Positions 58 to 41,418 of a stretch of DNA of 46,487 nucleotides are shown here, piece after piece. The position numbers and the translations under genes were made by a program. Numbering within the stretch: the first letter of the stretch is position 1; every line of letters begins with the position of its first letter. The notes under the pieces are model-generated. The model saw only the letters and a list, made by a program, of their open reading frames with translations, had not been told where the DNA came from and searched no databases. The stretch comes from an uncultured Alphaproteobacteria bacterium (GTDB lineage: Bacteria > Pseudomonadota > Alphaproteobacteria > Bin95). The stretch is from the NCBI GenBank assembly GCA_937891825.1, contig CALAHN010000112.1, forward strand, positions 1-46,487, read 5' to 3'.

Positions 58-1290
58 TCAAATTACCCCCGCCGCCTCCAGCCGCGCGATTTCGCTCGTG
101 TCGAGGTCGAGGAGGTCGGTCAGGACTTCGTGGGTGTGGGTGCGCGGCAGGGCGGCGGGGCTTCGATAGCCGGTTTCGGCGTTGCTGAATTTCAGGGGAA
201 AGCCGGGGGCGCCGACGCCATCCAGGTTCCCGAGCGTGGGGTGGCCCAAGGTTTCATACATGCCGCGCGCGCGGAGATGCGGCCAGTTCGCCAGCTCATC
301 GGGACCATGAATGGCGGCGGCGATAGCGCCGGCGGCGCGCACGCGCTCGACCGCTTCGGCGACCGTCAAGGCCGTCGCCCACTCCTGCACCACCCGATCG
401 ACCGCGGCATTGTTGGCCAGACGCCATTCGACCCTGGACCAGTCCGGATCGTCGAGTAGGTCCGCCCGGCCGATGACTTGAAGCATGCCCCGCCATTGGG
501 CCGTCGTCGCGGCGCCAAGCACGACCCAGCCGTCCGCCGCCTGGTAAGTGTTCACCGGCGAGAAGCGCAGGATGCGATTACCCTGGCGCACCGGGATGCC
601 GAGGCGCTCGTACCAGTCGATCGGATCGTCGAACAGCAGCGAGAACAGGCAGTCGATCATCGAGACGTCGACGAACTGGCCGACGCCCGTCTTCTCCCGG
701 TCGTACAATGCTGCCACGACGCCGGACATGGCGAAGGCGCCAGAGATCGCGTCCGAGAGCGCGGTGCCGGCCTTCATCGGCGGCTGGCCTGGCAGGCCGG
801 TCACGCTCATCAGCCCGGCGGCGGCTTGCACCGTGACGTCATAGGCCTTCAACCCGGCGTCCGGACCTGTCGAACCGTAGCCGGTCAATGCGCAGTAAAC
901 AATGCGCGGGTTGCGCTTGGCTACAGCGGCATAGTCGACGCCCAACCGCGCCATGACGCCGACGCTGAAATTCTCGACCACGACGTCGGCCTTTTCAACC
1001 AGCCGCAGAAAGAGCTCTCGTCCCTCCGCCTGCTTCAGGTCAAGGCAGATGGCTTTCTTGCCGCGCGATCGCTTCAGGAAGTTGACGCCGAGGTCATCCG
1101 GCGACTGGCGCTCCAGCGCGACGCCGTGCGGGCCAGCATAGGGCGGAGCGTGAGCGACGGTCGCCGCCGTCGCCGGCGAGTCGATGCGGATAACCTCCGC
1201 CCCAAGCCCGGCCAGGTACAACGTGGCCTGCGGGCCAGAAAAGAACTGCGTCAGGTCCAGAACGCGAACGCCGTCAAGTATGCGGTGCAT
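58..1290 (-). CDS. CaiB/BaiF family (family III) CoA-transferase
   Basis: Predicted cytosolic family III CoA-transferase that moves CoA between carboxylates through an enzyme-bound anhydride; the substrate cannot be told. The N-terminus (LDGVRVLDLTQFFSGPQAT), GLGAEVIRID and the later KAYDVTVQAAAGLMSVTG segment are typical of the family. In ALSDAISG the Asp, about residue 180 from the ATG used here, matches the conserved catalytic Asp. The 410-aa length is normal. I chose the ATG at 1290, which has AGGGG 8 nt upstream; the frame stays open to a TTG at 1329 that would overlap the preceding gene. It is the last gene of the minus-strand operon, 25 nt after the UGSC selenoprotein. It may activate or recycle the acyl product of that system, but this is inference. 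Fold and family are secure; reaction partners are not. Confidence 0.9.
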   Translation of the reverse strand: MHRILDGVRVLDLTQFFSGPQATLYLAGLGAEVIRIDSPATAATVAHAPPYAGPHGVALERQSPDDLGVNFLKRSRGKKAICLDLKQAEGRELFLRLVEKADVVVENFSVGVMARLGVDYAAVAKRNPRIVYCALTGYGSTGPDAGLKAYDVTVQAAAGLMSVTGLPGQPPMKAGTALSDAISGAFAMSGVVAALYDREKTGVGQFVDVSMIDCLFSLLFDDPIDWYERLGIPVRQGNRILRFSPVNTYQAADGWVVLGAATTAQWRGMLQVIGRADLLDDPDWSRVEWRLANNAAVDRVVQEWATALTVAEAVERVRAAGAIAAAIHGPDELANWPHLRARGMYETLGHPTLGNLDGVGAPGFPLKFSNAETGYRSPAALPRTHTHEVLTDLLDLDTSEIARLEAAGVI

Positions 1291-1315: not shown

Positions 1316-1855
1316 TCAGGCGCCGACAAGGATGCGCCGAACTTGTCCCGCCGCCTGGACTGCCCGGGCGGCGATCTCGTCGTCCGTGCAACTGGACAGC
1401 GGGTGATCGACGACGACGGGCTCGATATCCTCCATCCCCAGCGCCGCCCGCTGGGTGACGCATTCGTTCACGAATTCCGTCGTCACAATTATCGCCGTCG
1501 GCACGCCGAGGCTCTCGAGGCTGATTCCGTCACGCATACAGCACGACGTACAGGAGCCTCAGTCGCCGATCGCAGTGATCACCACATCGTTGTTGGCGGC
1601 GATCTCGGCGATCATCTCCGGCGTCGCGACGTAGGAAAAGCCTTCCTTCAGGTAGTAGTTTACCGCGGCAAGGTCGTGGTCCCGGCGCAAGATGTCGGTC
1701 GTGCCGTCCAGCAGTTTGCGCGCCTTCATCTTGGCGTTGTCGAGCACGCCGATACGCAGGCCATCGAGGCTGGCGACGCGGGGCGCGAGCGACAGCCGGT
1801 CAGCCACGACGCTGCCGCGAGGATCGTAACCGTATATCGGCGTTGCAAAGTTCAT
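1316..1855 (-). CDS. UGSC-family selenoprotein (in-frame UGA read as selenocysteine)
   Basis: The frame from ATG 1855 to the stop at 1316 is interrupted once, by TGA at 1561-1559, exactly where the UGSC family has Sec or Cys. Around it the protein reads VVITAIGD-U-GSCTSCCMRDG, giving 179 residues with Sec at position 99. Coding character continues on both sides without a frame change. An SD-like AAAGG lies 8 nt before the ATG. The first 98 residues look like a Rossmann-type alpha/beta domain (RIGVLDNAKMKARKLLDG); the second part is Cys-rich next to Sec (Cys102, 105, 106). A U-x-x-C motif suggests thiol/selenol redox chemistry or nucleophilic catalysis. It resembles the Sec motif of glycine/betaine reductase B subunits, from memory. 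A hairpin of bSECIS type begins right after the UGA (separate entry). A single annotated ORF here would split into 98-aa and 73-aa pieces. The function of the family is not established. Confidence 0.9.
1517..1561 (-). promoter_or_regulatory. bacterial SECIS element of the UGSC gene
   Basis: Read on the minus strand, UGA (1561-1559) is followed after 10 nt by an 8-bp stem, CGTCGTGC (1548-1541) with GCGTGACG (1535-1528), closed by the 5-nt loop TGTAT. The stem contains G-U pairs in its middle. The loop starts 18 nt after the UGA and its second base is G, which fits the known bacterial SECIS rules (apical loop about 16-37 nt downstream, G among its first two bases). A lower stem pairs GAGGCT (1560-1555, overlapping the UGA) with AGCCTC (1522-1517), enclosing the upper hairpin. 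The same bases also encode the conserved GSCTSCCMRDG segment. Confidence 0.82.
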
Positions 1856-1906
1856 GTAGTGAGCCTTTCAAGGTTGGCTGGCGAGACGATAATCGCAACT
1901 CGACGA

Positions 1907-3040
1907 TCAGAGATAGCAGGTGCCGTCAACGCAGATTGGGCCATGTCCGGTTGGCAATTCGCCGTCGATCGCCCGCAGCACGGGGTTGTTATAGTGGCCC
2001 CAGCCAGGGATGAACGAGGAGAACCGCCCGGCCGTTCCGCCGACGACAAAGAGGTGGATGTTGTCCGGAGACGGCACGATCGGAATGTCGGAATCTAGTT
2101 GGCGACGATACCAGCGCGGCAGATGGCGGTTGTAAACCTTGCCGTATTTGTGGTCATGGGCAAGAACGCCGAACTTGTTTGTCGCGTACATCTGCAGATA
2201 GCAGCGCACGTCGTGCCGGGTCCAGCCGTGCGCCGCGATCGACCGGGCATGCTCCGGCGAGAGCACGACGGTGCAGTGTCCGCTGGCGCGCGCATTGTTA
2301 TGCCCGACCGTTGTCATCGTCGAAATCACGTCGTTAAGGATGCCCTCTGGGTCGTTCGGCAATGGGCTGTTGATGTTGTGGTTCGATTCCGCGCCGATGA
2401 CGAAAACTGTCGACGCCGTCTCGCGGTAGCCATGCTCCACGTGATACGGCGCCCAGGGACTCTCTTCCTCGTTTTCGGCGACGCAATAGGTGTATTTCGC
2501 CGGCGTTCCCTGGGTGCTCTTGTCGAGGACGCCCGGCTGCGCGCCCCCCACATTCAACATCACCAAACGGATCGCGCGGCCAATGGTGGCGTTCGCGCGG
2601 TTGCCGGGGCCAAAGGCGCCGTGGCCTGCGTTCATCCCAATCGCGTTGCGGATCGGGCCATTGACGATAGTCAGGGGGGCGACGACATGCGTCGTCGCCT
2701 GAATGGCGTTCAGATTGAAGTGCGGCTCCATCATCGCCTTCAGCGCCGCGCGTACGACGGGCGCGTACTCCGGACGACACCCCGCCATGACAATGTTGAT
2801 CGCGAGCGTTCGGCGGCTCAACACGCCCCACCGCGGCGGGACACGGCCTTCCTGGAAATCCGGGTCGCCGCCCAGCGCCGTGACGACAGCGGCCACGGTC
2901 TCCGGCGTTGGCGGCGCGATCGGCAATCCATCGGTGTAACCGCGCTCAGCATACCATTCCTGCGGATCGACGCCGCTTATGCTTGTCATGTCAGGCGGCA
3001 GATCGTCCGGACGATGGTCGACGGCTAAGTCATTCGGCAT
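1907..3040 (-). CDS. 377-aa conserved protein of unknown function, partner of the UGSC selenoprotein
   Basis: Cytosolic protein without signal peptide or membrane segment. It carries long stretches that look strongly conserved: AERGYTDGLPIAPPTPE near the N-terminus, NIVMAGCRPEYAPVV, HVVAPLTIVNGPIRNAIGMN, GAFGPGNRANATIGRA and YTYCVAENEEESPWAP. Several Cys sit in such motifs, and the C-terminus ends PICVDGTCYL. From memory, this GYTDGLP family is often found beside or fused to a UGSC domain; I could not check that. The start at 3040 is supported by GGGAG 8 nt upstream; an upstream in-frame start at 3106 lacks such support. It is the first gene of the three-gene operon, 51 nt before the selenoprotein, so the two probably form one enzyme. 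Being rich in His, Cys and Asp, it may hold the main active site or a metal, but no known catalytic motif was recognised. Confidence 0.85.
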   Translation of the reverse strand: MPNDLAVDHRPDDLPPDMTSISGVDPQEWYAERGYTDGLPIAPPTPETVAAVVTALGGDPDFQEGRVPPRWGVLSRRTLAINIVMAGCRPEYAPVVRAALKAMMEPHFNLNAIQATTHVVAPLTIVNGPIRNAIGMNAGHGAFGPGNRANATIGRAIRLVMLNVGGAQPGVLDKSTQGTPAKYTYCVAENEEESPWAPYHVEHGYRETASTVFVIGAESNHNINSPLPNDPEGILNDVISTMTTVGHNNARASGHCTVVLSPEHARSIAAHGWTRHDVRCYLQMYATNKFGVLAHDHKYGKVYNRHLPRWYRRQLDSDIPIVPSPDNIHLFVVGGTAGRFSSFIPGWGHYNNPVLRAIDGELPTGHGPICVDGTCYL

Positions 3041-16806: not shown

Positions 16807-16883
16807 TGGCGTCTCCGGCTGGATTCGAACCAGCGGCCCCAGGATTAGGAATCCTGTGCTCTATCCGACTGAGCTACGGAGAC
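16807..16883 (-). tRNA. tRNA-Arg (anticodon CCT)
   Basis: Read on the minus strand: acceptor arms GTCTCCG and CGGAGAC pair perfectly; the D arm contains AGCTCAGTCGG; the anticodon stem CAGGA/TCCTG closes the loop TTCCTAA with anticodon CCT; the T arm has GGTTCGAATCC. Discriminator G and an encoded CCA end at 16807. It is a 77-nt gene without intron, lying 32 nt from the bamE stop and opposite in strand. Confidence 0.97.
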
Positions 16884-40620: not shown

Positions 40621-41418
40621 ATGGAATGGGTTGAGGCCAACGACGCCGTCTTCAGGACGGAGCGCGTCGGCGGCGGCGCCGGAACGCCGCTTTTGCTGAT
40701 TCAGGAACTGGGCGGCGACCTGACGAGTTGGGACCCGGCCTTGCAGGCCGGTCTCTGCGATGGGCGGCCGGGCCTCCGTTTCGACTGGCGCGGCGCCGGC
40801 GTCTCCGAGAAAATTCGGGGGCCTTTCGATATCGATGTGATGTGCGCCGATATCGCCGGGATCCTCGATGCGACCGGCTTCGGCGACGGCAAGCCTGTCG
40901 ATATTCTGGGCATCGCGCTTGGCGGCGGCGTCGCCATCGCCTTCGCCGCCAGATATCCCGACAGGGTCCGCCGCATGGTCTCGACCAGCTCCGCCATCGG
41001 CGGCATCGCGGCGACGGCCGAGAACCTGCGCAAGCGCGCCAAAGGCGTCGAGGAAAACGGCATGCGGCCCTATTGCGAGGCCAGCCATGCCGTCTCCTTC
41101 GCCGAACATCTTCGCACCGATCCCGACCTCTATGCCTGGTACCGCAAGAAGTGGATCGCCCAGGACCCGTCGAGCTTCGCCGCCCATAACCGGATGCTGG
41201 CCGACATGGATGAGAACCCGAACCTCGGGAAGATCAAGGCGCGCAGCCTGATCCTCTCCGGCACGCACGATCCCCTGCGGCCACCGGCGCTGGTCAAGGA
41301 GATCGCCGCCGGGATCCCCGGCGCGGAATACGAAGAACTGCCGACCGGCCACTTCATCCATGTGCAAACGCCGACGCTCTGCGCCAAGCGCGTCACGGCG
41401 TTCCTCGACGCCGCCTGA
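40621..41418 (+). CDS. alpha/beta-hydrolase-fold protein lacking the nucleophile serine
   Basis: A 265-aa protein resembling PcaD-type enol-lactone hydrolases (QELGGDLTSWDPALQAG, RFDWRGAGVSEKIRGPFDID). The nucleophile elbow reads G-I-A-L-G-G, with Ala99 where Ser, Cys or Asp is expected. The acid Asp (ILSGTHDPLRPP) and the His (LPTGHFIHVQTP) remain. Either it is catalytically silent, acts as a binding protein, or uses a mechanism without acyl-enzyme. The start at ATG 40621 fits the family N-terminus; AAGGGGG lies 12 nt upstream. It leads a plus-strand operon and diverges from the GMC gene across 73 nt. Confidence 0.88.
   Translation: MEWVEANDAVFRTERVGGGAGTPLLLIQELGGDLTSWDPALQAGLCDGRPGLRFDWRGAGVSEKIRGPFDIDVMCADIAGILDATGFGDGKPVDILGIALGGGVAIAFAARYPDRVRRMVSTSSAIGGIAATAENLRKRAKGVEENGMRPYCEASHAVSFAEHLRTDPDLYAWYRKKWIAQDPSSFAAHNRMLADMDENPNLGKIKARSLILSGTHDPLRPPALVKEIAAGIPGAEYEELPTGHFIHVQTPTLCAKRVTAFLDAA

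Follow-up and report, generated by a model that had tools for sequence, protein, structure and literature searches.

The window analysed here, a stretch of 46,487 nucleotides from an uncultured alphaproteobacterium (GenBank assembly GCA_937891825.1), contains a reading frame that is interrupted by one TGA codon, which raises the question of whether this codon is read as selenocysteine (Sec) and, if so, what the protein does. The original prediction had placed a single TGA at 1561-1559 in an otherwise continuous frame of 179 codons, with G-D before it and G-S-C-T-S-C-C after it, and had assigned the frame to the UGSC selenoproteins. Coordinates, strand and codon proved exact (Table 1). The frame starts with an ATG at 1855-1853, ends with a terminal TGA at 1318-1316 and is continuous apart from the internal TGA, which is codon 99 and is flanked by the residues ...VVITAIGD and GSCTSCCMRDG.... 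A mechanical listing of open reading frames splits it into pieces of 98 and 73 amino acids. By codon position, the base composition is that of a coding sequence and differs little across the internal TGA, with GC contents at the first, second and third positions of 0.63, 0.41 and 0.84 ahead of it and of 0.66, 0.50 and 0.80 past it; the values for the upstream gene, referred to below as the partner, are 0.63, 0.48 and 0.78. Composition also identified five more long read-through TGA candidates in the window; two of them, at 41416 and 10105, resemble the ends of ordinary genes. The sole Rfam match within the window is an ordinary tRNA gene (16810-16883, minus strand).

Table 1. Features of the UGSC locus (positions in the window) and GrdB-like genes elsewhere in the host genome, G000 (positions by contig).
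Feature	Position	Strand	Remarks
UGSC-family selenoprotein gene	1316..1855	-	179 residues, Sec at 99; family profiles and read-through translation
In-frame UGA as Sec codon	1559..1561	-	Opens the U-G-S-C-T-S-C (UxxCxxC) motif; TGA or Cys codon in relatives
SECIS-like apical hairpin	1529..1547	-	7 bp, 5-nt loop with GU; from 11 nt past the UGA, inside the coding sequence
Shine-Dalgarno-like GAAAGG	1864..1869	-	8 nt before the UGSC ATG; read from the sequence
Partner protein gene	1907..3040	-	377 residues; upstream of the UGSC gene
Family III CoA-transferase gene (PF02515)	58..1290	-	Starts 25 nt past the UGSC stop
GrdB-like L083	G000 C44:1404-1619		Motif PVUPNC
GrdB-like L089	G000 C152:8769-9167		Motif ANUPVC
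GrdB-like L090	G000 C48:12613-13017		Motif PAUPLD; without the +3 Cys

The read-through product scored 189.7 bits against the profile PF24696 (“UGSC family”; cut-off 25), which it matched over its whole length, and 146.9 bits against NF041046 (“UGSC family (seleno)protein”; cut-off 125). Chance can be excluded because the genome-wide search gave an E-value of 2.2e-53 for the PF24696 match across the whole frame, and because ten orthologues, nine with 63-71% identity and one with 57%, have a TGA at the same codon. In an alignment of 41 sequences (A1), residues 99-102 (Sec/Cys-Gly-Ser-Cys) are invariant. It is nearly certain that the product of the window gene is a UGSC-family selenoprotein. It adds one member to a known, uncharacterised family, and the novelty of the gene itself is low. 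The 2008 paper that described the family from Global Ocean Sampling data (PMC2398784) counted 255 Sec forms and 21 Cys forms and ranked it among the selenoprotein families of highest abundance; a 2026 review lists it as NF041046 (PMC13188914). The window copy resembles the family in the invariant Sec/Cys-Gly-Ser-Cys and in the UGA with a SECIS-like hairpin downstream; nothing essential differs, and its subgroup keeps the gene order partner, UGSC, CoA-transferase.

TGA is normally a stop codon and the assembly is a draft, which is what speaks for a true stop, a pseudogene or a sequencing error, with the two halves being separate or dead. The probability of this is negligible in view of the conservation of the protein and the codon composition on both sides, the SECIS-like hairpin, the Sec machinery of the genome and the other copies of the family. 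Exactly one TGA is present in each of the 61 near-full-length UGSC copies from 14 genomes of the host's family (a search at the level of the order yields the same 14, all of which carry UGSC genes), and it is located at the U of U-G-S-C in every family copy read out. The lone match without a TGA in these genomes is a fragment of 46 positions at a contig edge. Each genome has two to six divergent copies; the host has five UGSC genes, with one in-frame TGA in each. The second Cys of UxxCxxC is not universal, and there are subfamilies in which Trp or Ala takes its place.

In an even sample of the phylum, the family was present in 5 of 398 genomes, host included, two of which have the Cys form: L080 (SDCGSCTSC) and L079 (VHCGSCTSS). 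Homologues were expected from the outset to have Sec or Cys at exactly residue 99, and this holds for the TGA copies and for both of these genes. SelB scored above the cut-off in every tested genome with the TGA form (four of four), but neither in G156 nor in G290, which have Cys forms; the exchange of Sec and Cys follows the presence of SelB in these genomes. The Cys-form gene in G290 (L079/L082, contig C6) also has a broken frame and is possibly a decaying copy.

The host genome (4.3 Mb in 163 contigs, 99.97% complete) contains the full machinery for Sec incorporation. The search for selA, selB, selD and tRNA-Sec, proposed along with the suggestion that the host is a Sec user, recovered all four past their family cut-offs: a tRNA-Sec with the anticodon TCA (71.5 bits, gathering score 47), selB (423.8 bits, cut-off 242) adjoining selA (512 bits, cut-off 268) on contig 43, and selD (276 bits, cut-off 125) on contig 104. 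The latter encodes a fusion of SelD with a pyridine-nucleotide-disulphide oxidoreductase domain (L065:6663-8828, G000 contig C104), like the Ndh-SelD fusions that were noted in 2008 (PMC2398784). One of the UGSC genes lies on the same contig and converges with the selD fusion; upstream of its partner gene, there is a gene for a molybdopterin oxidoreductase.

The 50 bases that start at the UGA fold with -20.4 kcal/mol (z = -3.1), a value equalled by 1 of 200 shuffles, and in the fold of 1561-1512 the lower stem starts within the UGA itself. The predicted hairpin has the features described for bacterial SECIS elements (PMC1088965), namely a stem-loop just past the UGA and a small apical loop containing a G. 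A hairpin with up to seven pairs and a five-base loop containing GU is possible 14-32 bases past the first base of the UGA in 39 distinct copies. Among 32 representative copies, 89.7% of the cells are paired, three pairs have changes on both sides, and the covariation score was reached by none of 500 shuffles, a conservation that is partly owed to the protein code. The strongest sign of a hairpin is a compensated change, in which the second Cys codon has become a Trp codon (TGC to TGG) with CC for GC on the opposite side of the stem (L036, L059, L070), together with L069/L076, where a different sequence forms a putative hairpin at the same place. The TGC to TGG exchange with a matching change in the opposite stem was observed in L064 as well, and in these four copies the RNA fold and the protein sequence may limit each other's changes. 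At the corresponding place in the Cys form L080, no unusual fold stability was found (z about 0). Judged from the sequences, decoding of UGA codon 99 as Sec by the host's own SelA, SelB, SelD and tRNA-Sec, with the hairpin just downstream, is strongly supported.

The nearest relatives of the window copy (57-71% identity) are found in metagenome-assembled genomes labelled Caenispirillum, Reyranella, Enhydrobacter, Limnohabitans and SAR324, whereas other copies within the host's own family have about 36% identity or less. Since the outside relatives are closer than the copies of its own family, the window copy may have been acquired by transfer. A literature search for Sec in Reyranella returned nothing relevant.

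What such a protein does is less straightforward. In 2008 (PMC2398784), the UGSC proteins were suggested to be thiol/selenol oxidoreductases, a grouping kept in the 2026 review (PMC13188914). The corresponding explanation here is a general oxidoreductase, i.e. a thioredoxin-like disulfide reductase or peroxidase, for which the partner would be a protein client or electron donor, and the UxxC spacing at the start of a helix is indeed typical of redox-active motifs. An AlphaFold2 model (pLDDT 91.8), for which Sec was replaced by Cys, has residue 99 between a strand (91-97) and a helix (100-115) in a fold of five alternating beta-alpha units. The best fold matches in the PDB are general alpha/beta folds, among them azoreductase, a flavodoxin-like domain, TIR domains and lumazine synthase; thioredoxins are absent from the 50 best. 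In view of the beta-alpha architecture of the model and these matches, the literature probably errs in assigning a “Trx-like fold” to the UGSC family. The model, together with a specific profile match to GrdB-like proteins and the two to six divergent copies per genome, mostly with a partner of their own, makes a general oxidoreductase unlikely, if still worth weighing.

The profile match connects the UGSC family to GrdB/PrdB (PF07355). Three PF07355 (GRDB) proteins were identified in the host genome, each with one TGA at a conserved Cys motif (Table 1), and these are probably further selenoproteins, as judged by the position of the TGA. We compared the UGSC alignment with a profile of six sequences (A3), two of which are GrdB-like proteins of the host and four of which are Cys relatives from other genomes. 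The hhalign score was 47.4, with a probability of 89% over 73-74 columns, and Sec was aligned with the Cys/Sec residue in N-[C/U]-P-V-C. With the columns of Sec and the resolving Cys masked, the score was 44.1, as compared to a mean of 13.5 and a maximum of 20.2 in 200 column-shuffled controls. The motif of the window protein, with U99, C102 and C105, is UxxCxxC, which is also the motif of GrdB (PMC13188914). A direct search with the window protein gave no match to PF07355 even at E <= 10. The profile comparison makes it very probable that the UGSC domain is distantly homologous to the segment of GrdB/PrdB-like proteins that bears the Sec, a kinship for which no earlier statement was found in the literature, as far as our partial coverage goes.

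The two families share the alignment of Sec on Sec/Cys and the UxxC(xxC) motif. Two GrdB-like genes (L086, L088) are also adjoined by genes for family III CoA-transferases, as in the UGSC subgroup of the window. They differ in that the N-terminal part of UGSC is unaligned and in that UGSC has a different, unnamed partner. Neither GrdE/PrdA-type proteins (PF09338) nor GrdA (PF04723) were found in the host genome, but the models matched no control genome either, so that this result does not establish their absence. With this reservation, a true glycine or proline reductase is unlikely.

The partner has no family match in Pfam or NCBIfam, and comparison of both the partner and UGSC with PDB sequences returned nothing convincing. 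Of the 44 UGSC genes in L022-L064, 41 have a relative of the partner in their locus, and relatives also occur beside Cys-form UGSC genes. Nine other loci (L022-L030) share the order partner, UGSC, family III CoA-transferase on the same strand, and in several paralogues (e.g., L058, L059, L064, L070) UGSC and the partner are joined in one open frame, with UGSC first. Gene order and fusions thus provide good evidence for an association of the partner with UGSC. Fusions of UGSC to a conserved domain of unknown function were also seen in the Global Ocean Sampling data (UGSC/Unknown_1, Figure S1A of PMC2398784), and the partner may be the same domain as Unknown_1. On contig C12 (L068:3567-7161), two tandem partner genes and a gene for a pyridine-nucleotide-disulphide oxidoreductase, similar to flavoprotein disulfide reductases, lie downstream of the UGSC copy and on its strand. 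The pairing is not universal: members of one orthologous group (L034/L066, L049, L063) have no partner nearby, to the limit of the sequence examined, and UGSC proteins of this solitary form may act on their own or with a partner encoded elsewhere.

Several further leads on the partner itself were followed. Its end, CVDGTCYL-TGA, raised the question of a second Sec, but homologues end with TGA, TAA or TAG at this position, as expected for an ordinary stop. When compared to A3, it showed no similarity (probability 0.1). Class I fumarate hydratases were the best PDB matches in a fold search (E about 9e-4), and two Cys residues, C88 and C186, are nearly invariant, which would suit a non-reductive enzyme in which the partner is a metal- or Fe-S-dependent, lyase-like protein and Sec a nucleophile or metal ligand. 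However, the fumarase-like and Toblerone-fold matches are weak (TM-scores of 0.2-0.3, rmsd about 17 A), C88 is replaced by Ala in the fusion subfamily, which is ill-suited to an essential Fe-S ligand, and the invariant Cys in UxxC favours redox chemistry. We consider a non-reductive enzyme quite improbable.

The reading that we prefer is that UGSC and the partner of about 380 residues form a two-part, Sec-dependent reductase with GrdB-like chemistry, and we give the mechanism as a whole a probability of roughly 50%. Against it stand the missing direct match of the window protein to PF07355, the small size of the A3 profile, the solitary UGSC group, the variable second Cys of UxxCxxC and, with the reservation given above, the negative searches for GrdE/PrdA and GrdA. 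The catalytic steps, which rest on distant homology and gene order, are modelled on the manner in which the Sec of GrdB/PrdB is thought to act in reductive cleavage. The substrate would be held by the partner, and Sec99, which directly follows a beta-strand and sits at the N-terminus of a helix, would attack an electrophilic atom of the substrate. Cys102 of the UxxC motif would resolve the adduct to give a selenenylsulfide, which thioredoxin or a dedicated flavoprotein disulfide reductase would then re-reduce. A flavoprotein would fit because an oxidoreductase gene is present in the UGSC/partner locus on contig 12. Family III CoA-transferases beside the UGSC subgroup and two GrdB-like genes suggest that the products are carboxylates, which the CoA-transferase of the operon would pass to CoA. 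The divergent copies, mostly each with its own partner, suggest that the substrates differ. More tentatively, UGSC and its partner could represent an unrecognised branch of the GrdB/PrdB superfamily, expanded to two to six copies per genome in one bacterial lineage, with the copies probably acting on several substrates and yielding carboxylate products that become CoA esters.

The kinship with GrdB/PrdB and the association with the partner go beyond the published accounts consulted. If both hold, a family that has been placed with thioredoxin-like proteins since 2008 would gain an enzyme class, two-part reductive cleavage, and the UGSC proteins would have a defined second subunit. This would also help to explain why some bacteria have many Sec-containing copies, and the host lineage, with a TGA in all of its near-full-length copies, would be suited to studies of the need for selenium.
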